DNA of 64,000 bases from Celeribacter sp. HF31. Its GTDB lineage: Bacteria; Pseudomonadota; Alphaproteobacteria; Rhodobacterales; Rhodobacteraceae. Below, in pieces: positions 38,920 through 63,878 of this stretch. The position numbers and the translations under genes were made by a program. Location of the stretch: the NCBI RefSeq assembly GCF_011806455.1, contig NZ_JAATOT010000002.1:310001-374000 (forward strand), read 5' to 3'. The notes below the pieces were generated by a model. That model did no database searches, was not told the origin of the DNA, and saw only the letters and a list, made by a program, of their open reading frames with translations. Positions within the stretch are counted from its first letter, which is position 1, and every line of letters starts with the position of its first letter.

Positions 38920-38934
38920 TTAATGTGCTTTTAA
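38920..38934. promoter_or_regulatory. CtrA-type box upstream of cckA
   Basis: TTAA-TGTGCTT-TTAA is an exact match to the CtrA consensus TTAA-N7-TTAA, about 150 bases before the cckA start. Confidence 0.7.
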
Positions 38935-50747: not shown

Positions 50748-51779
50748 ATGAACCTCAAAGAGCTTTCCACCCTGCTGGGCCTGTCCCAGACCACCGTGTC
50801 GCGGGCCCTGAACGGCTATCCCGAAGTGTCCGAAGTGACCCGCGACAAGGTGATGAAAGCCGCAAAACAGCACAATTACACGCCCAACATCCGCGCCCGT
50901 GGCTTGGCCACAGGGCGCAATCATACGGTGGGCCATGTGATCCCGCTGTCGACCGAACATGAGGTGGTGAACCCGGTGTTCACCGATTTCATCGCGGGCG
51001 CGTCTGAGATTTATGCGCGCGAAAATTACGACATGATGCTCACCATCGTGCCCGACAAAACCGAGGCCGAGGCCTATCGAAAAATCGCCGCGAAAGGCTC
51101 GGTCGATGGCGTCATCGTGCATGGCCCCAAGGCCAACGATCCCCGCATCGCGCTGTTGCGCGAGATCGGCATGCCCTTTGTGGTGCATGGCCGGTCGGGC
51201 ATTGCCGAGGAAAGCGAATATTCCTGGGTCGATATGAACAACACCCGCGCTTTCGAGCGCGCCACCCAGTTCCTGATCGACCTGGGGCATCGTCGTATCG
51301 GGCTTTTGAACGGCTTGGAGAATATGGATTTCGCCATAAAACGTCGCGAGGGCTATCGCGATGCCTTGATTTCCGCCGGACTGAAAGAGCACAAGGAACT
51401 CTGCTATTCCTCTGAAATGACAGAGGAATACGGATTTTCCGCCACGCTGGAGATGCTCGCACTGCACAAACCTCCGACCGCGATCCTGGCCTCTTCGATC
51501 ATTGTCGGTTTCGGTGTGCGCCGGGCGCTCGACACTGCGGGCCTCAAGATTGGCAAAGATGTGTCGCTGATCGTGCATGACGACGATCTGTCCTATCTGC
51601 GCAACGGTGCGGCCGAGCCGATCTACACCGCCACGCGGTCCTCTGTGCGCATGGCCGGACGGATTTGCGCCGAGATTTTGATGGAACAAATTTCTGATCC
51701 GAAACGCCCGATGCGCCACGTGCTTTTGGATGCGGAATTGATCATCGGCCACACCACCGGCCCGGCCCCCAAAAGCTAA
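50748..51779 (+). CDS. aglR: LacI-family repressor of the agl genes
   Basis: 343 residues. The N-terminal LacI HTH (MNLKELSTLLGLSQTTVSRA, then LNGYPEVSEVTRDKVMKAAK) is followed by the hinge (YTPNIRARGLATGRNHTVG) and a periplasmic-binding-like sugar domain. It is transcribed away from aglEFGAK and towards bglA-glk, and the matching palindromes at both targets make it the probable local repressor, relieved by an alpha-glucoside or glucose (inferred). The A/R insertion residues in the hinge look intact. Confidence 0.9.
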   Translation: MNLKELSTLLGLSQTTVSRALNGYPEVSEVTRDKVMKAAKQHNYTPNIRARGLATGRNHTVGHVIPLSTEHEVVNPVFTDFIAGASEIYARENYDMMLTIVPDKTEAEAYRKIAAKGSVDGVIVHGPKANDPRIALLREIGMPFVVHGRSGIAEESEYSWVDMNNTRAFERATQFLIDLGHRRIGLLNGLENMDFAIKRREGYRDALISAGLKEHKELCYSSEMTEEYGFSATLEMLALHKPPTAILASSIIVGFGVRRALDTAGLKIGKDVSLIVHDDDLSYLRNGAAEPIYTATRSSVRMAGRICAEILMEQISDPKRPMRHVLLDAELIIGHTTGPAPKS

Positions 51780-51834
51780 ACGTCTCTCTTCCACCTCGCG
51801 GATTTTTCCCAAGAAATTTTTATGACGCCGCAAA

Positions 51835-51850
51835 ACCAAAGCGCTTTGGT
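51835..51850. promoter_or_regulatory. Distal AglR-type operator at bglA
   Basis: ACCAAAGCGCTTTGGT is a perfect 16-bp palindrome one base upstream of the proposed -35 TTGCTT (51852-51857), with -10 TATGTA at 51876-51881. Confidence 0.8.
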
Positions 51851-51926
51851 CTTGCTTCGACCAAGACTTCAAGACTATGTAAGAGACAATCGCGGGCGTC
51901 CCCCGGGGCGCTCCGCGCACAAAAGT

Positions 51927-51934
51927 TAGCGCTA
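51927..51934. promoter_or_regulatory. Proximal AglR-type operator at bglA
   Basis: TAGCGCTA, identical to the octamer at aglE, 48 bases before the bglA start codon and downstream of the proposed promoter. Confidence 0.5.
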
Positions 51935-51982
51935 CCTACGCCCGTAGAATCCGTCGCAGAAAACCCAGGCCAAGGAGGTCCC

Positions 51983-53323
51983 ATGACATCTCGCCCCAAC
52001 CTGACCCGCAAAGACTTTCCGAACGGCTTTCTCTTTGGCGCCGCCACCGCCGCCTATCAGGTCGAGGGCCATAAATTCGGCGGCGCAGGCCCGACGCATT
52101 GGGACACTTTCGCCGCCACGCCCGGCAATGTGCTGCGCGCGGAAGACGGCGCTTTGGCCTGCGATCAGTACCACCGCTACGGCAAAGACATGGACCTGTT
52201 GAAAGACGGCGGTTTCGACGCCTATCGCTTTTCCACCAGCTGGGCGCGGGTGATCCCCGAAGGCCGCGGCGCCGTGAACCGCGAAGGCCTCGATTATTAC
52301 GACCGGCTCACCGACGCCATTCTGGAACGTGGCCTTGAGCCGCATCTGACGCTGTACCATTGGGAGATGCCCGCGGCTCTGGCCGATCTGGGCGGCTGGA
52401 CCAACCCCGACGTGCATCTCTGGTTCGGCGATTTTGTCGAGGTGATCGACGATAAGATCGGCGACCGCATGGCGACGGTGGCGACGGTCAACGAACCTTG
52501 GTGCGTTTCTTATCTCTCGCATTTCCTGGGCCATCACGCGCCGGGCCGCCGCGACATCCGCGCCGCCGCCCGTGCCATGCATCATGTCCTGAAGGCGCAT
52601 GGCGAGGCCATGACCCGGCTGCGCGACCGGGGCCGCAAGAACCTTGGCATCGTGATCAATTTCGAACACACCCAGCCCGCCAGCGACGATCCGAAAGACA
52701 TCCAAGCCGCCGCCACGCAGGACGCCACAAACAATCGCTGGTTCATCGAGGCCATCGCGAAGGGGCATTATCCGCAAGAGGCGCTCGCGGGCCTTGAGCC
52801 GCATCTGCCGAAAGGCTGGCAAGACGATATGACCGCGATTTCCCAGCCTATCGGCTGGCTCGGCGTGAACTATTATTTCCGCCAACTGGTCGCCCATGAC
52901 GCCGCCTCGCCCTGGCCCCATACCAAACCCGCGCAGGGTCACTTGGCCACCACGCAAATGGGCTGGGAGATTTGTCCCGAGGGCCTGCGCGCGCTTTTGG
53001 TCAACCTCAAGGACCGCTATGTCGGCGATCTGCCGATCGTGGTGACCGAAAACGGCATGGCCTGGGACGATCATATGAAAAACGGCGTGGTGCACGACCC
53101 GGAACGCTGCGCCTATATCACCGATCACATGGCCGCGATGCATCAGGCGATTGCCGAAGGCGTGAACCTCAAAGGCTTTTTCTACTGGTCGCTTTTGGAC
53201 AACTATGAGTGGGCTTTTGGCTATGAACGGCGCTTCGGCATCGTGCATGTCGATTTTGAAACGTTGCAGCGCACCCCCAAAGCCTCGTATCACATGTTGA
53301 AAGACATGATCGCACGGAGCTGA
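51983..53323 (+). CDS. bglA: Beta-glucosidase, GH1 family
   Basis: 446 residues behind AAGGAGG. The GH1 barrel has acid/base E171 (ATVNEPW) and nucleophile E356 (IVVTENGMA), the sugar-binding stretch FLFGAATAAYQVEGH at the N-terminus, and SLLDNYEWAFGYERRFGIVH near the end. No signal peptide is seen, so it is cytoplasmic. It hydrolyses beta-glucosides such as cellobiose, which broadens the operon beyond alpha-linked sugars. Glucokinase begins two bases after its stop. Confidence 0.95.
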   Translation: MTSRPNLTRKDFPNGFLFGAATAAYQVEGHKFGGAGPTHWDTFAATPGNVLRAEDGALACDQYHRYGKDMDLLKDGGFDAYRFSTSWARVIPEGRGAVNREGLDYYDRLTDAILERGLEPHLTLYHWEMPAALADLGGWTNPDVHLWFGDFVEVIDDKIGDRMATVATVNEPWCVSYLSHFLGHHAPGRRDIRAAARAMHHVLKAHGEAMTRLRDRGRKNLGIVINFEHTQPASDDPKDIQAAATQDATNNRWFIEAIAKGHYPQEALAGLEPHLPKGWQDDMTAISQPIGWLGVNYYFRQLVAHDAASPWPHTKPAQGHLATTQMGWEICPEGLRALLVNLKDRYVGDLPIVVTENGMAWDDHMKNGVVHDPERCAYITDHMAAMHQAIAEGVNLKGFFYWSLLDNYEWAFGYERRFGIVHVDFETLQRTPKASYHMLKDMIARS

Positions 53324-53325
53324 AA

Positions 53326-54300
53326 ATGCCCAAACACCCCGCAGACACCCTCACCCTTCTGGCCGACATCGGCGGGACCAACACCCGCGTGGCGCTGGCC
53401 GATGGGGTGACGCTCCTGCCCGACACGATCCGGCGCTATTCCAACCGCAAGTTTCCGGGTCTCGAAACCGTGCTCCGGCAATATATCGCGGAAGAAGGCG
53501 ATGTGGATTGCAAAGGCGCCTGTGTTGCCGTGGCGGGTCCGGTGCGCGACGGCGTCGGCACGATGACCAATCTCGACTGGACCATCGACAAGGACACGCT
53601 GCGCCGCGCCTGTCAGGCCGAACATGTGGCGATCCTCAACGATCTTCAGGCCCAGGGCCATGCTTTGGGCCTTGTCAGTTCCGACAACATCCGCCCGATC
53701 ATCACCGGGCCTGAGGCCTCGCCCCAGGCCGTGCGCCTCGTGGTCGGCATCGGCACCGGGTTCAATGCAGCGCCTGTCTTCGAGACCGGCGCGGGCCGTC
53801 TCGTGGCGCCCTCCGAATGCGGCCACGCCAACCTGCCGATCCGCAATGAACATGAGTTGGCGCTTTGTCAGTTCGTCGAGACCGCGCATGGCTTTCCGGC
53901 GGTCGAAGATGTGCTTTCCGGCCGTGGCCTTGAGCGCGTTTACCTGTTCTTGGGCACCGAAGCGGGCGACGCGTTTGAGAAATCCGCCGCCGAGATCATG
54001 GCCTCGGTCGAAGCGGAGGACGATCCGCGCGCGACGGCGGCAGCCCAGCTCTTCGTCAAGATCCTCGGCACTGTCGTGGGCAACCTGTCTCTGGTGCAAC
54101 TGCCCTTCGGCGGGGTCTATCTGGTGGGCGGCGTGGCGCGCCATATCGCGCCCTATCTCGACCGTTTCGGCTTTGACGAGGCCTTCCGCGACAAAGGCCG
54201 ATTTGCCGGTTTCATGAAGAATTTTTCGGTTTCCGTGATCGAAGACGACTATGCGGCGCTGACCGGTTGCGCCTCTCACATGCATCACACCTACCCGTAA
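53326..54300 (+). CDS. glk: Glucokinase
   Basis: 324 residues of the bacterial Glk (ROK-unrelated, hexokinase-fold) type. The phosphate-binding motif is LLADIGGTNTRVAL, the adenosine region LVVGIGTGFNAAPV and the sugar-site motif SECGHANLPIRNEHE. It phosphorylates glucose released by AglA and BglA, feeding the Entner-Doudoroff or related routes. GGAG lies six bases upstream and the gap to bglA is two bases, so translation is coupled. A terminator follows. Confidence 0.96.
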   Translation: MPKHPADTLTLLADIGGTNTRVALADGVTLLPDTIRRYSNRKFPGLETVLRQYIAEEGDVDCKGACVAVAGPVRDGVGTMTNLDWTIDKDTLRRACQAEHVAILNDLQAQGHALGLVSSDNIRPIITGPEASPQAVRLVVGIGTGFNAAPVFETGAGRLVAPSECGHANLPIRNEHELALCQFVETAHGFPAVEDVLSGRGLERVYLFLGTEAGDAFEKSAAEIMASVEAEDDPRATAAAQLFVKILGTVVGNLSLVQLPFGGVYLVGGVARHIAPYLDRFGFDEAFRDKGRFAGFMKNFSVSVIEDDYAALTGCASHMHHTYP

Positions 54301-54485: not shown

Positions 54486-54767
54486 ATGACAACGCATGTG
54501 CAACTCCACGACCGGCTCGATTATCAGTCCGTGATGCCCCTCATGGAAGAACTGAAGACCATCACCGATGACGAGCTGGTGATTGATGCAGGAAACGTGC
54601 GCCACCTCGGCACGCTCCCTCTGCAAGTGATCCTTGCGACCGTCAAACAACGGACCGCACAGGGCAAACAAACCCGCGTGACGAATGCCTCCGATGGCTG
54701 CGTCGATATTCTGAGCCTCTTTGGCTTTTCTCCTGAAACCCTGACCCAAACGGAGGCTTGGACATGA
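54486..54767 (+). CDS. STAS-domain protein heading the che operon
   Basis: 93 residues with GGAG seven bases upstream. The STAS fold is visible in VMPLMEELKTITDDELVIDA, GNVRHLGTLPLQVILATVKQ and DGCVDILSLFGFSPETL. The usual phosphorylatable serine or threonine after the central strand is replaced by the segment VRHLGTLPLQ, where T58 is the only candidate. STAS proteins regulate partners by binding, and its place at the front of a che operon suggests a signalling adaptor. The stop overlaps the cheY start (ATGA). Confidence 0.85.
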   Translation: MTTHVQLHDRLDYQSVMPLMEELKTITDDELVIDAGNVRHLGTLPLQVILATVKQRTAQGKQTRVTNASDGCVDILSLFGFSPETLTQTEAWT

Positions 54768-55129
54768 GCCTGGAAGTTCTCGCTGTCGATGACAGCCGCA
54801 CCATGCGCGATATGCTCAATCTTGCTCTTTCTTCTGCCGGCTTCACCGCCCATCTCGCCGAAGACGGCGTGCATGGCCTTGAAGTCCTCGAAGACATCGA
54901 ACCCGACGTCATCATCACCGACATCAACATGCCGCGCATGGATGGTTTCGGGTTCATCGATGCAGTGCGTGCCGAGTCGAAATGGAGCCGCATTCCCATT
55001 CTCGTGCTGACCACCGAAAGCGCCGATGAGCTCAAGACCAAAGCCCGCGCCGCCGGTGCCACCGGCTGGATCGTCAAGCCGTTCGACCCGGCAAAACTCG
55101 TAAAAGCCCTGCAAATGGTGGCTGGTTAA
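54764..55129 (+). CDS. cheY: Chemotaxis response regulator CheY (first copy)
   Basis: 121 residues from ATG 54764, overlapping the STAS stop by four bases. It is a stand-alone receiver: acidic pocket in LAVDDSRTMRDML, phosphoacceptor D53 in VIITDINMPRMDG, switch T in LVLTTESAD, and lysine in GWIVKPFDPAKL. Phospho-CheY binds the flagellar motor or acts as a phosphate sink; the two CheY copies here may divide these roles. Typical single-domain length. Confidence 0.95.
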   Translation: MSLEVLAVDDSRTMRDMLNLALSSAGFTAHLAEDGVHGLEVLEDIEPDVIITDINMPRMDGFGFIDAVRAESKWSRIPILVLTTESADELKTKARAAGATGWIVKPFDPAKLVKALQMVAG

Positions 55130-55139
55130 GAGGTTTACT

Positions 55140-57473
55140 ATGTCCGACCCGATGGCAGAAATCCGCGCCTCCTTCTTCATTGAATGCGAGGAACTCCTGG
55201 AAAGCCTCCAGGATGGCCTCCAACTCATGGATGATGGCGACACAGACCCGGAAACGATCAATATCGTGTTCCGCGCCGTGCACTCGATCAAAGGCGGCGC
55301 CGGCGCCTTTGGGCTGGATGATCTGGTCCGTTTTGCGCATCGGTTCGAAACCGCCATGGACGAGGTCCGCGCCGGTCGGTTCCATCCCGATGGAGAAGCC
55401 ATTCGCCTCTTCTTCGCCTGTGCCGACATCCTGGGTGACCTCGTGCGAGCAGCACGGGATGACGAACAGGTCGATGACGCGGTCACCGGCCCGGTTCTCG
55501 AAAAGCTCGACAAGCTCGTGGGCCTCGAAGAGGAAGAGGAGGAAGTCCTCGACTTCACACCTGCAACCCTGTCGTTGGATTTTGGCGACGGTGGTGGCTT
55601 ACCGGACTTGCCGGATCTCCCCGACCTGAGCGCTCTGCCCGCCGCAGATCCGTCGGAGGACACTCTGCCGTCTCTGGAACTGCCTGCAGACATGCCTGCC
55701 CCTGTCGCAGAAGCGGCTATGGAAAGCACCGCGAAAGGTTTCACAGTCCATTTCAAACCAGAGAACGCGCTCTATGCGTCTGGCAATGAACCCCTCTACC
55801 TGTTCCGCGCCCTGCGGGATCTTGGCGACATTTCGGTCACCTGCCACTGTGGCGACCTGCCGGACCTCGATCAGCTCGATCCGGACACAGGTCATCTGTC
55901 CTGGAATCTGACCGTTCACACCGAAGAAGCTGAACAAGCGGTGCGTGAAGTCTTTGAGTTCGTCGACGGACTTTGTGTGCTGGAAATCAAACCTCTCACC
56001 GGCGGCGGCGCCATGGTCGCTCCTGCTCCGGCACCGGCGCTCGTCGTTGAGCAAGCTGTCGAAATCGCAGCCCCCGAAGCGGCACCACTCGCAGCCCCTC
56101 AAAAGCCCCAAGTGTCGACCGAAGCAGCCCCCGCGCCCACTCCAAAACCAGCACCTGTTGCAAAGCTCCCTGTCGGCTCTGATGACGACACGATAGACGC
56201 AGCCCCGAAAGACGAGAAAACCGCGCCCTCCGTTCCAGCCAAAGCCACCGGCACACCGACGCAACCTCGTGCCACCGTCCGCGTCGATCTGGAACGGATC
56301 GACCGTCTCGTGAACCTCGTCGGCGAGCTGGTCATCAATCAGGCCATGTTGAGCCAATCCGTGACTGAAGCCGGCCTGCCCCCCAACTCTCCGGTCTCCA
56401 CAGGCCTCGAAGAGTTCCTTCAACTGACCCGTGACATCCAGGAATCCGTGATGATGATCCGCGCTCAGCCGATCAAATCCCTGTTCCAGCGCATGGGTCG
56501 CATTGTTCGGGAATCTTCTGCTTCCGTCGGCAAGGAAGTGCGTCTCTATACGGATGGTGAAAACACCGAAGTCGATAAGACCGTCATCGAACGGCTTGCT
56601 GATCCGCTCACCCACATGATCCGAAACGCCGTCGATCATGGGCTTGAAAGTACCGAGAAACGTCTTGAAAGTGGCAAGAGCCGCGAAGGCCATGTCACGC
56701 TGACCGCCCAACACCGCTCCGGTCGTATCGTCATCGAAGTCAGCGACGATGGCGCAGGTATCAACCGCGAACGCGTCAAGCAAAAGGCCATCGAAAAGGA
56801 ATTGATCCCTGCCGATGCGCAACTGAGCGACAGCGACATCGACAACTTGTTGTTCTTGCCCGGTTTTTCGACGGCTGCCGAAATTTCCAACCTGTCCGGT
56901 CGCGGCGTTGGGATGGATGTGGTCAAAAGCTCGATCCAGGCTCTTGGCGGTCGGATCAGCATCACCTCGCATGAGGGCAAAGGCACCACCTTCTCGATCT
57001 CCCTGCCTCTGACCCTTGCCGTTCTGGACGGGATGGTGGTTCGCGTGGCCGATGAAACCCTCGTTGTGCCGCTCAATGCCATCCTTGAGACCCTCACATT
57101 GACCGATGACGATCTGAAAGCCCTCGGACCGGAAACCCACGTCGTTCAGATTCGGGGCGGCTTCGTTCCCCTCCTCGATCTTGGCGCAGAGCTTGGCTAC
57201 CGCAAACCGCAAGACAGCTACGTCGGCGGCATCGTCCTCCTGATCGGTCAGGAAGACGGGAACCGGGCCGCTCTCGCCGTCGATGCGATCGAAGATCAAC
57301 GCCAGGTCGTCATCAAAGGCCTGGAAGGCAGCTATGGACGTGTCCCAGGCATTGCCGCGGCCACCATTCTGGGCGACGGGCAAATCGCCCTCATTCTCGA
57401 TCCGACCGATTTGGTGGGTCAGGCTTCGGGGCGGACACGGGTCCGCCAGCCACAACAAGCACTCGTAGGATAA
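55140..57473 (+). CDS. cheA: Chemotaxis histidine kinase CheA
   Basis: 777 residues. P1 (1-105) carries phosphorylated H48 in RAVHSIKGGAGAFG. An acidic linker with LPDLPDLPDL repeats leads to a separate domain at about 195-285 (FKPENALYASGNEPLYLFRA), which takes the place of P2. After an alanine/proline-rich linker come P3 dimerisation (380-440, ERIDRLVNLVGELVINQAML), the P4 ATPase (LTHMIRNAVDHGLES; SGRGVGMDVVKSSIQALGGR) and the P5 CheW-like domain to the C-terminus. It passes phosphate to CheY. It starts 10 bases after cheY. Confidence 0.97.
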   Translation: MSDPMAEIRASFFIECEELLESLQDGLQLMDDGDTDPETINIVFRAVHSIKGGAGAFGLDDLVRFAHRFETAMDEVRAGRFHPDGEAIRLFFACADILGDLVRAARDDEQVDDAVTGPVLEKLDKLVGLEEEEEEVLDFTPATLSLDFGDGGGLPDLPDLPDLSALPAADPSEDTLPSLELPADMPAPVAEAAMESTAKGFTVHFKPENALYASGNEPLYLFRALRDLGDISVTCHCGDLPDLDQLDPDTGHLSWNLTVHTEEAEQAVREVFEFVDGLCVLEIKPLTGGGAMVAPAPAPALVVEQAVEIAAPEAAPLAAPQKPQVSTEAAPAPTPKPAPVAKLPVGSDDDTIDAAPKDEKTAPSVPAKATGTPTQPRATVRVDLERIDRLVNLVGELVINQAMLSQSVTEAGLPPNSPVSTGLEEFLQLTRDIQESVMMIRAQPIKSLFQRMGRIVRESSASVGKEVRLYTDGENTEVDKTVIERLADPLTHMIRNAVDHGLESTEKRLESGKSREGHVTLTAQHRSGRIVIEVSDDGAGINRERVKQKAIEKELIPADAQLSDSDIDNLLFLPGFSTAAEISNLSGRGVGMDVVKSSIQALGGRISITSHEGKGTTFSISLPLTLAVLDGMVVRVADETLVVPLNAILETLTLTDDDLKALGPETHVVQIRGGFVPLLDLGAELGYRKPQDSYVGGIVLLIGQEDGNRAALAVDAIEDQRQVVIKGLEGSYGRVPGIAAATILGDGQIALILDPTDLVGQASGRTRVRQPQQALVG

Positions 57474-57477
57474 GATC

Positions 57478-57945
57478 ATGACTGACACCGAAAAACAGAC
57501 CGATTCCACTTCGATCGAACTCTTGTCCTTCCGCGTTGGCGGTCAGGATTACTCCGTGGACATCATGTCCGTTCGAGAAATCCGTGGCTCGGCGAAAGCC
57601 ACCTCCCTGCCGCATGCACCCTTTTTCGTCAAAGGCGTCATCAACCTTCGCGGCACGGTGCTTCCAATCATTGATCTCGCAGCCCGTCTCGGTCTGCAAA
57701 CAGGTGAAGATACGGAGCGCAATGTCATCATCGTGGTTGATCTGGGGGAACGCACAGCTGGCCTGATGGTGGATGCCGTATCCGACATTCTCGCCATTCC
57801 TTCTGAAGAGATGCAGCCCCCGCCAGATCTCGCGGCTGATGAAGCGAGAACCTTCGTCTCGGCCCTCACGATCGTGGATGGTCGCATGATCCGTATTCTG
57901 GACCTTGAAGCCGTTATGCCCCCGCAGGGCGAGGAGGTCGCTTGA
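57478..57945 (+). CDS. cheW: Chemotaxis coupling protein CheW
   Basis: 155 residues of normal CheW fold: ELLSFRVGGQDYSVDIMSVR, then PHAPFFVKGVINLRGTVLPI and IDLAARLGL, with the receptor/CheA-binding IVVDLGERTAGLMVDAVSDI. It links receptors to CheA. It begins four bases after the cheA stop and ends in a TTGA overlap with cheR. Confidence 0.96.
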   Translation: MTDTEKQTDSTSIELLSFRVGGQDYSVDIMSVREIRGSAKATSLPHAPFFVKGVINLRGTVLPIIDLAARLGLQTGEDTERNVIIVVDLGERTAGLMVDAVSDILAIPSEEMQPPPDLAADEARTFVSALTIVDGRMIRILDLEAVMPPQGEEVA

Positions 57946-58859
57946 GCGAACTGTCTCCCATAGATGGCCGCCCCAAAATGGCCAACGCAATCTCTGATCG
58001 AGCCTTTTCACGCATTGCAGCGATAGCGGCGCGTGAAGCCGGGATCGTTTTGGCTGCGTCAAAAGTTTCCATGGTCAAGTCTCGTCTGACGAGACGGCTC
58101 CGGGCACTCAAAATGTCCAGCTTCGAAGATTATCTTGATTTTCTGGAAGCTTCGGGAGACCGGACAGAGATGAACAACTTCATTTCTGCACTGACGACGA
58201 ACGTGTCGCATTTCTTTCGGGAAAACCACCACTTCGAGTACCTTGCGGGCACCATCCTTCCCCACCTCAAACAAAAACTGGCGAATGGTGGAAAAGTGCG
58301 GATTTGGTCGGCCGGTTGTTCCAATGGTCAGGAGCCTTATTCTATTGCCATGACTCTTCTGAAATCCGCGCCAGAGCTGGCGCAGAAGGACGTGAAGATT
58401 CTCGCAACGGACATTGACCCCGAAGTGCTTGCCCGCGCCAAAAGCGGCCAATATTTCGGCTCTTTGACAACAGGGCTGACAGATCAGACGATTGCGAGTT
58501 TTTTTACGAAAAGCCATCAGGATGGCGAGGAGACCCTGACGGTCAACCCCAACGTCCGAAACATGGTCTCTTTCCGCCAGCTCAATCTCCATGCAGACTG
58601 GCCGATGAAGGGGAAATTCGACGCGATCTTCTGCCGAAATGTCGTCATCTACTTCGATGAAGAGACGCAGATCCGATTGTACAAACGCTACGCCAACATC
58701 CTGGAACCAGGGGGCTGGCTGTTGCTCGGGCATTCGGAACGTCTCAACGAAAGCGTCACACCGCTTTTCGAAAGCGCGGGCGTCACAACCTACAAAACCA
58801 AACAAACCACCTCGCCACCCGCACCGATCGGTGCGCACGAAAATAAAGGACCCGTCTAA
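57942..58859 (+). CDS. cheR: Chemotaxis receptor methyltransferase CheR
   Basis: 305 residues starting at TTG 57942, which overlaps the cheW stop (TTGA) and has GAGGAGG six bases upstream; an ATG at 57978 is an alternative. An N-terminal helical domain precedes the SAM-binding block KVRIWSAGCSNGQEPYSIAM. ALTTNVSHFFRENHHFEYL contains the receptor-contacting residues, and FDAIFCRNVVIYFDEETQIR is the CheR signature. It methylates receptor glutamates. The partner methylesterase gene cheB is not in this operon. Confidence 0.96.
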   Translation: MSELSPIDGRPKMANAISDRAFSRIAAIAAREAGIVLAASKVSMVKSRLTRRLRALKMSSFEDYLDFLEASGDRTEMNNFISALTTNVSHFFRENHHFEYLAGTILPHLKQKLANGGKVRIWSAGCSNGQEPYSIAMTLLKSAPELAQKDVKILATDIDPEVLARAKSGQYFGSLTTGLTDQTIASFFTKSHQDGEETLTVNPNVRNMVSFRQLNLHADWPMKGKFDAIFCRNVVIYFDEETQIRLYKRYANILEPGGWLLLGHSERLNESVTPLFESAGVTTYKTKQTTSPPAPIGAHENKGPV

Positions 58860-59245
58860 TGGCACTTAGAGATCAACTCCGTGTCATGGTCGTTGATGAT
58901 ATGTCGACGAGCCGCGGACTTATCACCAACGCTTTGGATTCATATGGCATCCGAAATGTCGCCAGCGCGGCGGACGGGCCGTCCGCTCTTCAAAAATTGG
59001 CGGCCTATCCAGTGCATCTCGTGATTTCGGATTACAACATGCCGGGGATGGATGGTTTGCAGCTGTTGCACGCTCTGCGCTCCAACGGTCAGACGAGAGG
59101 TGTCGGCTTTCTCCTGATCACGGGGCGGGCAGATCGAGAAATTATCGATATGGGCAAACGCCTTGGGATGAACAACTTTCTGAAAAAGCCATTCGATCCA
59201 GCCGGGCTGCGCGGGGCGATCGAAGCAATCGTGGGCAAACTCTGA
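58859..59245 (+). CDS. cheY: Chemotaxis response regulator CheY (second copy)
   Basis: 128 residues, sharing one base with the cheR stop (TAATG). The acidic pocket is VMVVDDMSTSRGLI, phosphoacceptor D58 in LVISDYNMPGMDG, switch T in FLLITGRADREI, and lysine in NNFLKKPFDPAGL. It is only moderately similar to the first CheY, so the duplication is old. The pair may act as motor regulator and phosphate sink, as described for other Alphaproteobacteria (inferred). Confidence 0.94.
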   Translation: MALRDQLRVMVVDDMSTSRGLITNALDSYGIRNVASAADGPSALQKLAAYPVHLVISDYNMPGMDGLQLLHALRSNGQTRGVGFLLITGRADREIIDMGKRLGMNNFLKKPFDPAGLRGAIEAIVGKL

Positions 59246-59646
59246 TGAAGGCCTTTGCTGAACACGCCCCGCAAGAGAGCGGCACAAATGCGCCCGCGGT
59301 CATCCCGCTCGGGACTTTGAACAAACGCATCCAGGACGAAATGGTCGCGCTCGTAATCCTTGCGGCAGAGGTTCAGATCGCTTTGGGACCAACGCTTGCC
59401 GAAGCCAAATCGCTTTCCCCGGCGGTTCAACGCAGCTTGCAAGCGATTGACCGCCTGCACCAGACCATTGACGATCTGCAACGCGTCATGGGGCATCTCG
59501 CGGCTCAAGCGGAAACCGCCACCGTGCAAATCGATCCCCTCAGCGAAGTCATTCGCCTCAGGCATCTGGCACATAAACTGTTCGACAATATCGATGCGCC
59601 TTTTGCGCTCTCCGAGGACGACTCTGGTGAAATTGCTTGGTTTTAG
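59245..59646 (+). CDS. Small helical protein, candidate CheZ/CheT-like CheY-P phosphatase
   Basis: 133 residues, start overlapping the second cheY stop by one base (TGATG). Predicted mostly helical. L65-QAI-D69-RLH-Q73 fits LxxxDxxxQ; the DxxxQ pair is the catalytic motif of CheZ (D143/Q147 in E. coli). The last residues (LSEDDSGEIAWF) are acidic and end in phenylalanine, like the CheY-binding tail of CheZ (VDDLLDSLGF). Overall similarity to CheZ is not evident. S. meliloti CheT, encoded in its che operon, likewise has little similarity to CheZ beyond a DxxxQ helix (from memory). Function here is inferred. Confidence 0.6.
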   Translation: MKAFAEHAPQESGTNAPAVIPLGTLNKRIQDEMVALVILAAEVQIALGPTLAEAKSLSPAVQRSLQAIDRLHQTIDDLQRVMGHLAAQAETATVQIDPLSEVIRLRHLAHKLFDNIDAPFALSEDDSGEIAWF

Positions 59647-59663: not shown

Positions 59664-60215
59664 GCTGTCTTTGAACAGAACCTGAGCGTTTTAAACTGGT
59701 GCTGTTTCGCGGTGGCGTTCTGTCAGAGCAGACCAAAGCAGCCACTTCCAGACGGGAACTGTCAGCGACCAACGATATCTTAACCTGACAGCCTCAGGCT
59801 CTTGTCGCAATGATGTGGTGGCGAAGATGCCTGAGAAATAGAGACGCTTTGCCGCCTTGCCCACAATTCATCTTCGCGGTTTGCAAGACGTCGATACACT
59901 ACCCAAACCTCACACATCAACAAAGGTGAATATTTTACCTTTACAGCCGCATGTTCACATTCCAAATCACGCATGTGATAAAATCCTGTGCGCCAAAGAA
60001 TTGCGGAAGGCATAACAGCCACACGTACGCGTGATTTTTCGTCAAATCCTTGTGAAAACTCTCAGAAAAACTTGGGCGATGCTGCAGTGCGTCAATCCGT
60101 CGCGCTTGTGACTCAGCGCTAACAGGCGTAGCCCCGGCGTCACAAACTCATGGTCGGCGTGTCGGCGACCAATAAGAGCCGCCGGGACTGCCGGACAACA
60201 ATAAAGGCACGCACA
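59664..60215. other. Spacer between che operon and cyoA, no confident gene
   Basis: A leftward open frame at 59780-60022 (80 codons) lacks a ribosome site and any recognisable family. The AT-rich part at about 59900-60070 is the likely cyo promoter region. No FNR box (TTGAT-N4-ATCAA) was found. Confidence 0.4.
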
Positions 60216-61292
60216 TTGCTTAGACTCAGGACCCTCCTGCTGGCCCTCGCCGGCGCTTTTGCGCTGTCCGGGTGTCAGTATCATGTACTCTCGCCACAGG
60301 GCTGGGTTGGGGACCAACAGCGCAATCTGTTGATCATCTCGACCCTTCTCATGCTCATCGTCATCATCCCCGTTCTGATCATGGCGGTGTATTTCCCCCT
60401 AAAATACCGCGCCGATCGCGAGGATACCTCCGATTACGATCCGACCTTCGAACATTCCAACAAGATCGAAGTGGCGATCTGGGGGGTGCCGATCCTGATC
60501 ATCATCGCCCTCGGTTGGTTCACCTACGACTACACCCACAAACTCGACCCCTACCGCCCGCTCGATCACCTCGAAGCCGGCGCGCCGATCGAGGTCGAAG
60601 CGGTGTCGCTCGATTGGAAATGGCTGTTCATCTACCCCGAGTACGGCGTGGCGTCGGTCAATGAGCTGGCGATCCCTGCGGGCCGTCCGGTGAATTTCTC
60701 GCTGACCTCCTCGACCGTGATGAACACCCTGTCGATCCCGGCTCTGGGCGGCATGGTCTATTCGATGACCGGCATGGAGACGAAACTGCACCTGATCGCG
60801 GATGAAACCGGCACCTTCCCGGGCCGTTCTGCGCATTACTCGGGGCCTGGTTTTTCGCACATGACCTTCGACACGCTGGCGATGTCCGACGAGGATTTCA
60901 ACGCCTGGATCGAAGAGCGCAAAACCGATGGTGCAGCGCTGGATCGCGCAAGCTATCTGGAGCTTGAGAAACCGACCATCGACGAGCCGGTGCGCTACTA
61001 TGCCTCCGTCGAAGACGGGTTGTTCGACCGCATCGTCGAGATGTGTGTCGAAGAGGGCAAAGTCTGCATGGGTCAGATGATGATGCAGGACGAAATGGGC
61101 GGCGGCGGCCTTGCGGGCATCCCGAATGCGGCGGCCTATAGCTATGACCGCGCCCGCACCATCGACGGTTTTGGCAATCTCATCGACCTGCCTGAAATTG
61201 AGGTGAAGGCCCTGCACGAGGCCTTCTGGAATGACCCGGCTGCGATCTGCGGACCTGACTTCGCAGTCACGGAGGACACAAAAAATGGCTAA
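60216..61292 (+). CDS. cyoA: Cytochrome o ubiquinol oxidase subunit II
   Basis: 358 residues from TTG 60216, with AAGG eight bases upstream; this places a lipoprotein signal at the N-terminus ([19 protein letters not shown], lipobox LSGC). An ATG at 60150 would add 22 residues. Two membrane segments and the motif [20 protein letters not shown] identify CyoA. The periplasmic domain lacks CuA ligands, as in quinol oxidases. It overlaps cyoB by eight bases. The cyo operon lets electrons pass from ubiquinol to oxygen with proton pumping. Confidence 0.93.
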
Positions 61293-63276
61293 CGCACAAC
61301 CGGCGGAAACCTTTTCGCCCATCTTCGGCCGGCTGACGCTGGACTGGATTCCCTATCACGAACCGATCCTGGTCGCGACCTTCGCAGGCGTGGCCTTGGG
61401 CGGGCTCGTGGTTCTGGCTCTGATGACCTATTTCAAGCTTTGGGGCCCCTTGTGGCGCGACTGGGTGACCTCGGTCGATCACAAGAAAATCGGCATCATG
61501 TATATGATCCTGGGCTTCATCATGATGATCCGCGGCTTTGCCGACGCCCTCATGATGCGCGCGCAACAAGCCATGGCCGCAGGCGAAGCCGCAGGCTATC
61601 TGCCGCCGCACCACTTTGATCAGGTCTTCACCGCCCACGGCGTGATCATGATCTTCTTTGTCGCCATGGCCTTTGTCACCGGCATCATGAACTACGTCAT
61701 GCCGATGCAGATCGGCGCGCGCGATGTGGCCTTTCCGTTTCTCAACAACTTCTCCTTCTGGATGACGGTTGCAGGCGCGCTTCTGGTCAACATCTCGCTC
61801 TTCGTGGGGGAATTCGCCCGCGTTGGCTGGCTGGCCTTCCCGCCTCTGTCGGGGGCGAATTATTCGACCGGACCGGGGATGGACTACTATCTCTGGGCGC
61901 TTCAGATCGCAGGTATCGGCACCACGCTGTCGGGCATCAACCTGATCGCCACGATCCTGAAAATGCGCGCGCCGGGTATGAAGCTGATGGACATGCCGAT
62001 CTTCACCTGGACCGCGCTGATCACCAACGTGCTGATCGTCGTGGCCTTCCCGGTGCTGACCGCCACTCTGGCGCTTCTGACGCTCGACCGTTACGCGGAT
62101 TTCCACTTCTTCACCAATGACTTCGGTGGGAATGCGATGATGTACATCAACCTGATCTGGATCTGGGGTCACCCGGAAGTCTACATCCTGATCATCCCCT
62201 GCTTCGGCGTCTTCTCCGAGATCGTCTCGACCTTTTCCGGCAAGCCGATCTTTGGCTACAAGACGATGGTTTGGGCCACGGCCTGCATCATGGTGCTGTC
62301 CTTCGTGGTGTGGTTGCACCACTTCTTCACCATGGGCTCCGGCGCGAGTGTGAACACCTTCTTCGGCATCACCACGATGATCATCGCCGTGCCGACCGGT
62401 GTGAAAATCTTCAACTGGCTCTTCACCATGTACAAAGGCCGCGTGCGCCTCGAAGTTCCGATGTACTGGACCATTGGCTTTCTCATCACCTTCACCATCG
62501 GTGGGATGACCGGTGTGCTTCTGGCCGTGCCACCCGTGGACTTCCAACTGCACAACACGCTGTTCCTGATCGCGCACTTCCACAATGTGATCATCGGCGG
62601 CGTCGTCTTTGCCGTCTATGCGGCGGTCTCCTACTGGTGGCCGAAAGCCTTCGGCTTCAAACTCAACGACAAATGGGGCAAACGCACCTTCTGGTTCTGG
62701 TTCGTGGGCTTCTACTTTGCGTTCATGCCGCTCTACGCGCTGGGTCTCATGGGCGTCACCCGCCGGATGAACGCCTACCCGGATGCCGCCTGGCAGCCCT
62801 ACTTCATCGTCGCCGCCTTCGGTGCCGTGCTGATCCTTCTGGGCATCATTTCGACCTTCGTGAACTTCTACGTCTCGATCCGCGATCGCAACGAGAACCG
62901 CGTCGGCAATGACCCCTGGGATGCGCGCACGCTGGAATGGGCCACGCAATCTCCGCCCGCGCCGTATAACTTCCCCTTCGATCTTCAGATCACCGGGCGG
63001 GAGGCGTTCTGGACCATGAAAAAGCAAGGTTTCACTTGGCCCAAGGAGAACTACAAACCGATCCACATGCCCAAAGGCACCGCCACAGGTGTGATGATTT
63101 CGGCGCTGGCTCTGGCCTTCGGCTTTGCCATGGTCTGGTACATCTGGTGGCTCGCCATCCTGGCTTTCGTCGGCATGCTCGGCCTCGGGATTGCCCATAC
63201 CTTCAACTACAAACGCGACTATTACATCCCCGTCGATGAAGTCGCCGCAACCGAAGCCAAAGGAGCCGCCGCATGA
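61285..63276 (+). CDS. cyoB: Cytochrome o ubiquinol oxidase subunit I
   Basis: 663 residues from ATG 61285, with GGAGG nine bases upstream. Haem and CuB ligands are in [27 protein letters not shown] (His-Tyr pair), [10 protein letters not shown] and [15 protein letters not shown]. The polypeptide has the 15-helix layout and 660-residue length of CyoB rather than the shorter cytochrome c oxidase subunit I. The quinol-site region [20 protein letters not shown] is present. It overlaps cyoA at its start and cyoC by four bases at its end. Confidence 0.97.
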
Positions 63277-63878
63277 GCCACTCCCAAACTGCAAGCGTGA
63301 GCATCGCAGACCACGAGGTGCATCACGACAGCCCCACGCCCATCGGGTTCTGGATTTACCTGATGAGCGACTGCATCATCTTCGGTGCGCTTTTCGCGAC
63401 CTATGCCGTCTTGGGCGGCGGGTTCGCGGGCGGGCCGGGGCCGAAGGATCTGTTCGAGCCTGGGTTCGTCGCCATCGAGACGGCTTTGCTGCTGTTCTCC
63501 TCGATCACCTTCGGCCTCGCCATGCTTCAGGCCGACAAGGGCAAACGCGACGGCACGATGATGTGGCTGGTGATCACCGGCCTTCTGGGCGCGGGCTTCA
63601 TCGCGATGGAGCTTTATGAGTTCCGTCACCTGATCCACATCGGTGCGGGTCCGGATCGCTCGGCCTTCCTGTCGTCCTTCTTCGCGCTCGTGGGCACCCA
63701 CGGGTTGCACGTGACGGGCGGCATCATCTGGCTCGTGACGCTTCTGACGCAGATCAAGGCCCACGGGTTGACCACCGCCAACATGCGTCGCCTCGGCACG
63801 CTGTCGATGTTCTGGCACTTCCTCGATCTGATCTGGATCGGCGTGTTTTCCTTTGTCTATCTCGTGAGGTTGATCTGA
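63273..63878 (+). CDS. cyoC: Cytochrome o ubiquinol oxidase subunit III
   Basis: 201 residues with AAAGGAG seven bases upstream. Five membrane segments, as in Cyo[21 protein letters not shown] and [20 protein letters not shown], then [20 protein letters not shown], which holds the family histidine pair. It stabilises the oxidase. It overlaps cyoB by four bases (ATGA) and shares one base with the cyoD start. Confidence 0.96.

Follow-up and report, generated by a model that had tools for sequence, protein, structure and literature searches.

The last gene of a che operon in Celeribacter sp. HF31 raises the question of how the phosphorylated CheY of such an operon is switched off. The window analysed here, a stretch of 64,000 nucleotides (contig NZ_JAATOT010000002.1, positions 310,001 to 374,000), carries this operon on its forward strand in the order STAS-domain gene, cheY1, cheA, cheW, cheR, cheY2 and a final gene that we name cheT. 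The STAS-domain gene occupies the place of cheS (54486-54767; PF13466, E 4.9e-8). It is followed by cheY1 (54764-55129), the counterpart of the S. meliloti sink CheY1 and the predicted CheT substrate; by cheA (55140-57473), the sole PF02895 (CheA) match found in its own genome; and by cheW (57478-57945), assigned by its Pfam match. The methyltransferase gene cheR (57942-58859), also recognised by Pfam and 44% identical in its product to S. meliloti CheR, encodes a possible partner of CheT, and cheY2 (58859-59245), which corresponds to the CheY2 gene of S. meliloti, has a stop codon that shares a base with cheT. For cheY1 the ORF list gives a TTG start at 54758; the ATG at 54764, which overlaps the stop of the STAS gene as ATGA, is the likelier start.

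On either side of the operon (50748-54300 and 60150-63878), the translations, judged by eye, look like those of a beta-glucosidase, a glucokinase, a regulator of the LacI type and cytochrome c oxidase proteins. The cheB (C12:119366-119896) and cheD (C12:120106-120393) genes adjoin each other on another contig, outside the che operon; in S. meliloti both lie inside the operon, whereas in the genome of the window cheT stayed with cheY2. A full TTAAN7TTAA, presumably the CtrA-type site pattern, was not found near the che operon in a scan of the window, and its sole occurrence, at 38920-38934, is away from the operon (chance expectation 0.05). For P. inhibens DSM 17395, the accessible text of PMC12363192 describes eight che genes on a 262-kb chromid that depend on the CtrA phosphorelay.

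The cheT gene (59245-59646, forward strand) encodes a protein of 133 residues according to the ORF list and its translation, and its ATG begins on the last base of the cheY2 stop codon, TGA. An earlier note, made from the sequence alone, had seen in L65, D69 and Q73 the geometry of the CheZ catalytic pair and proposed a CheY~P phosphatase; all three residues are indeed present. The signature is better written QxxDxxxQ, since Q66 proved as invariant as D69 and Q73, and it spans 59440-59463 (Q66, caa, 59440-59442; D69, gac, 59449-59451; Q73, cag, 59461-59463). Near the end of the gene, positions 59608-59643 encode the acidic C-terminal tail LSEDDSGEIAWF, which resembles the GDFEAF of S. meliloti CheT and is not universal. 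Searches of the window protein against Pfam and NCBIfam gave chance-level matches only and no convincing family, and the same was true of S. meliloti CheT and three other alphaproteobacterial CheTs. A profile search of PDB sequences with the window protein returned TAL-effector and coiled-coil matches, which we regard as chance.

The distribution of the gene was followed first among relatives and then through the order. With the window protein as query against 101 relatives, matches came from 23 genomes: its own, 17 among the 19 further genomes of its genus, and 5 belonging to the family. The two same-genus genomes that gave no cheT match also gave no CheA or CheB match (one of them, G006, is only 85% complete), so that cheT goes with the chemotaxis system. 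For the wider census, 196 genomes of the order, each at least 90% complete, were anchored on the position of cheY2 (orthologue cut-off E<=1e-18) to avoid picking genes by their motif. A cheY2 orthologue was present in 102 of them, and a cheT profile built from the first relatives matched 61 of the 196, 60 of these among the 102. Of the remaining 42 cheY2 genomes, two were found through a wider profile and 40 were taken purely by position, and in all 40 of the latter an ORF directly after cheY2 carries QxxDxxxQ. Altogether, a QxxDxxxQ gene directly follows cheY2 in 101 of 101 loci with a placeable cheY2, where 2.7% would be expected per shuffled protein. The motif-bearing ORF is the longest at the cheT place in 97 of these loci; in the other four the ORF taken was a shorter one, with its start closer to the cheY2 stop, so these four are partly motif-selected.

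The arrangement of these loci is equally regular. The first start codon of cheT lies between 60 bases before and 45 bases after the cheY2 stop in 100 of the 101, and overlap of start and stop is the commonest arrangement (41 of 101: GTGA in 19, ATGA in 15, TTGA in 7). The order cheY1-cheA-cheW-cheR-cheY2-cheT was found in all 20 of the fuller Rhodobacterales loci, with a STAS gene detected by tblastn in 11 of them. Two further loci are exceptions in layout and keep QxxDxxxQ: in G203 cheT follows cheA-cheW and no cheY2 was found beside it, and in G221 some 1.5 kb separate cheT from cheY2, the two genes are on opposite strands, and their 9-kb contig carries cheD as well. In three named strains the product is annotated as a hypothetical protein: WP_011536822.1 in Ruegeria sp. 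TM1040, WP_014881834.1 in P. inhibens 2.10 and WP_129373196.1 in Leisingera sp. NJS204. A tblastn search of plasmids with the window protein and one alphaproteobacterial CheT found nothing, and a two-row CheT profile run on two small orders returned the seed sequences only. Matches of the wider profile in L095, L096 and L098-L107 were not counted as CheT because no che genes were found beside them, and L097 and L105 gave no match at all in the follow-up search. The match L095:946-2724, from another alphaproteobacterium, is a long frame with LQAGDLTRQ that ends in GDVDFF, possibly a CheT-like domain in a larger protein; no che genes were found beside this frame.

Conservation concentrates on the motif. 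The alignment of the 101 proteins omits G203, where cheT has no neighbouring cheY2, and G221, whose cheY2 fell beyond the DNA retrieved. Just three of its columns are without variation, those of Q66, D69 and Q73; the next best conserved are L105 (92 of 101), L65 (81), L112 (80) and F133 (80). The smaller alignment of the first relatives, 21 of 23 sequences after two were dropped as near copies (L010 of L009, L016 of L014), reaches down to 23% identity and keeps Q66, D69, Q73, D77, A46, L105, L108 and L112 invariant. Codons at the three fixed positions are mixed (Q66, CAA 31 and CAG 70; D69, GAC 51 and GAT 50; Q73, CAG 72 and CAA 29): the codons vary while the residues are fixed, and purifying selection acts on the motif residues. 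The dN/dS was 0.019-0.033 in three of six same-genus pairs, those with unsaturated dS. The invariance of D69 and Q73, which the earlier note had named as its own test, held in all 101 proteins. The acidic tail ending in Phe, which it had likened to the CheY-binding peptide of CheZ, is real in the window protein and is not general: the last residue is exactly F in 69 of 101 proteins, and the tail is absent from the Ruegeria sp. TM1040 and P. inhibens 2.10 proteins.

To place the family, we compared it with the che locus of S. meliloti. The best PDB match of the window CheY2 is chain 1p6q, labelled CheY2, which we take to be S. meliloti CheY2; its sequence is found with 100% identity in S. meliloti 4H41, where the genes run STAS gene-cheY1-cheA-cheW-cheR-cheB-cheY2-cheD-cheT. 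By its place and its motif, the ORF after cheD (L108:6969-7340; Q54/D57/Q61) appears to be the published CheT. From this locus and 79 others, mostly of Rhizobiaceae and fetched through CheY2, a rhizobial set was assembled; every one of the 80 loci has, downstream of cheY2, a match to the S. meliloti post-cheD gene (worst E 3.1e-21), and all 80 proteins carry Q-x2-D-x3-Q. Profile-profile comparison by hhalign of the 101 Rhodobacterales proteins with the 80 rhizobial CheTs gave a probability of 98.7% (E 2.5e-16) over 117 columns, full length, and masking of the three invariant columns still left 97.9% (E 5.1e-13). The real comparison scored 86.9, against at most 23.1 for 40 column-shuffled controls and 12.7 for a reversed one, and a smaller comparison of 21 with 14 rows reached 80.9%.

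Searches with rhizobial profiles point the same way. Three rhizobial alignments were made from the 80 CheTs, one of 14 rows and two of 41 rows. In 89 of 101 loci a rhizobial HMM ranked cheT above all other ORFs there, in 53 loci cheT scored E<0.01, and of the 2916 ORFs no other fell below E 0.01; with the motif columns masked, cheT was still first in 79 loci and below E 0.01 in 28. The window protein alone was not found by the 14-row rhizobial HMM (E 6.9), and its membership in CheT runs through intermediates of the family. Judged by these profiles, the 133-residue protein is a divergent CheT, the Rhodobacterales counterpart. The new branch foreseen by the earlier note is thus borne out across the order, in 101 of 101 loci, as a branch of a known kind, since CheT was reportedly described in 2024 by Agbekudzi et al.

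CheZ is a different matter, and the relation that had been suspected to both proteins holds for CheT only; to CheZ none is detectable. The window protein has no match to PF04344 (CheZ) in Pfam at E<=1, and none was found in its own genome. Against ten alphaproteobacterial CheZs, hhalign gave a probability of 1.0% for the Rhodobacterales set and 2.3% for the rhizobial set. These ten come from ten loci of the 15 genomes with a PF04344 match among 101 examined; all 15 lie outside the family of the window. The statement that Alphaproteobacteria generally lack CheZ was too broad. None of the 15 was matched in the search of the relatives with the window protein. Among genomes at least 90% complete, the wider profile hit one of them, G087, and the hit is a frame of 518 residues that lacks the motif. 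As far as these searches reach, the two proteins appear to be alternatives.

Structure predictions give a similar plan for both CheTs. AlphaFold2 models the window protein with helices at 22-53, 59-88 and 97-114 (pLDDT 66 and pTM 0.49, a weak model) and S. meliloti CheT with helices at 14-40, 47-74 and 85-102 (pLDDT 80, pTM 0.63). Both models place the motif on the second helix, in the window protein the single helix 59-88, here at modest confidence; the earlier note had likewise put the motif on a predicted helix. The agreement of the models is not independent, because the alignment behind the window model includes rhizobial CheTs. Relative to the hydrophobic direction of a helical wheel computed with the motif left out, Q66, D69 and Q73 stand at -162, 137 and 177 degrees, and the corresponding residues of the rhizobial set at -153, 146 and -173 degrees; the face that bears the motif, opposite the hydrophobic moment, is polar and presumably exposed. 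In these predictions, then, the second outcome by which the earlier note would have been refuted, a motif away from any exposed helix, did not appear. The C-terminus of the window protein is modelled at pLDDT under 50. Helices 22-53 and 59-88 form a predicted hairpin, for which fold searches listed only common helical arrangements: Foldseek and VIA-align returned de novo helical bundles, TBK1, CHMP4B, seryl-tRNA-synthetase and ESX-type hairpins for the two models, which is uninformative. CheZ was not listed in this output for either model, and this excludes nothing.

Taken together, we propose, with a probability of about three in four, that the protein is the Rhodobacterales CheT, a putative CheY~P phosphatase for which the sink CheY1~P would be a likelier substrate than CheY2~P, and which perhaps also binds CheR. 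CheT would speed the hydrolysis of CheY~P much as CheZ does: D69 would contact the conserved lysine in the active site of CheY, Q73 would position the water, and Q66, one turn upstream on the same helix face, may provide a third contact in the site. By binding and draining CheY1~P (54764-55129), CheT would draw phosphoryl groups from CheY2, the motor regulator, back to CheA, and the signal would end. Binding to CheR, as with S. meliloti CheT, would link this termination to adaptation. The preference for CheY1 is an analogy based on orthology to one species: CheY1 is reportedly, in the abstract of Agbekudzi et al. 2024, the CheY whose dephosphorylation S. meliloti CheT speeds. Against S. meliloti CheY1 and CheY2, respectively, the window CheY1 shows 60.8% and 36% identity and the window CheY2 32% and 43%. 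Both STAS genes belong to PF13466, and tblastn gave no direct match between them. Sink and CheS biology in S. meliloti is summarised in the accessible part of PMC8429497.

Two other readings keep the descent from CheT. First, the substrate may be the motor regulator CheY2~P, or both CheYs, which would make CheT a functional CheZ; we consider this unlikely, if worth keeping in mind. The position of cheT, with its start near or overlapping the cheY2 stop in 100 of 101 loci and cheY1 several genes upstream, speaks for it, as do the missing PF04344 match in its own genome and the fact that none of the 15 CheZ genomes belongs to its family. However, eight aligned CheYs (window, S. meliloti, TM1040, P. 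inhibens) separate on this point: every CheY1 has TTE after strand 4, in the place where E. coli CheY has T87-A-E89, and each CheY2 has R, K or Q at the third place. CheY1 also forms the closer pair with its S. meliloti counterpart. Moreover, in S. meliloti too cheT stands nearer to cheY2 than to cheY1, and even so the available text of PMC12654446 reports just one CheY as the target. The coupling to the second cheY noted earlier is a true one-base overlap that does not make CheY2 the substrate. Second, the main role of CheT may be that of a binding partner without catalysis, for CheR or for the array, in which case the motif would be retained to bind a CheY. S. meliloti CheT has been reported in complex with CheR (PMC12654446, as far as its text is available), and in the window cheR lies two genes upstream of cheT; still, three side chains fixed in 101 of 101 otherwise divergent proteins fit catalysis better than binding, and we hold this reading to be improbable. 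That the gene encodes a coiled coil with some unrelated function and bears the motif by accident can practically be dismissed, for although DxxxQ is short and the protein has no convincing Pfam or NCBIfam family, the invariance of the motif, the positional census, the purifying selection and the profile homology to CheT all stand against it.

The reading of the protein as a CheT acting on CheY1~P can be extended, with somewhat less than even odds, to the proposal that CheT is the standard signal-terminating enzyme of the ancestral type of chemotaxis system in Rhodobacterales, with a three-residue active site in which Q66 would be catalytic or substrate-positioning and would have no counterpart in CheZ. 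If so, the whole order would have a dedicated phosphatase and not CheY sinks alone. In the accessible portions of the literature on CheT we found no mention of the invariant Q66. For A. fabrum, the available text of PMC12654446 places CheT (atu0522) in the chemotaxis cluster with CheY2 (atu0520) and gives it 70% identity to S. meliloti CheT, a DXXXQ motif and a CheZ-like AlphaFold model. The same text reports dephosphorylation of only one of two CheYs by CheT and a complex with CheR, and mentions homologues from S. medicae, R. leguminosarum, C. crescentus and Hoeflea. One loosely worded sentence there counts Rhodobacter sphaeroides with the bacteria that have "CheD, CheS, and CheT", so the idea of a Rhodobacterales CheT is not wholly unprinted; our literature search found no study of CheT in Rhodobacterales. 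R. sphaeroides is described as without CheZ (PMC2829493, available part), CheA3 is said to do the job of CheZ for CheY6 (PMC10924463, available part), and neither of these partial texts was found to name a phosphatase for CheOp1. The presence of CheT in 101 of 101 che loci examined in the order offers a direct and testable answer for signal termination in systems of the window type, and it supplies a name for a gene that roseobacter annotations, those of Ruegeria sp. TM1040 and Phaeobacter inhibens 2.10 among them, still list as hypothetical.

Among known systems, the HisKA_3 sensor kinases (HDxxxQ) and CheC/CheX/FliY share with the window protein a helix-borne acid and amide directed at response-regulator phosphate. 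HDxxxQ carries the phospho-accepting His, whereas the window protein has no His before D69 (residue 68 is I; the commonest residue there is L, in 44 of 101), and none of these families was among its Pfam matches. CheZ folds as a long helical hairpin that forms a four-helix dimer, has a C-terminal CheY-binding peptide, and uses D143 and Q147 to engage the active-site lysine of CheY and to place the water. The window protein shares with it the DxxxQ pair on a long helix and, as proposed, the action on CheY~P; it differs in having no detectable sequence homology, no FQDxTGQR core such as the alphaproteobacterial CheZs examined have, a preceding Gln at D-3 and not D-1, and 133 residues against the 203 positions of the CheZ model. 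CheT would thus be a second protein, of undetectable sequence relation to CheZ, with a DxxxQ helix apparently used for the same chemistry. S. meliloti CheT differs from the window protein in its sequence (19% identity) and in its operon, which includes the cheB and cheD that are paired elsewhere in the genome of the window; the two share full-length profile homology, QxxDxxxQ, a predicted three-helix plan, a tail G-[DE]-x-x-x-F of the GDFEAF/GEIAWF type, and the final place in a matching che operon.
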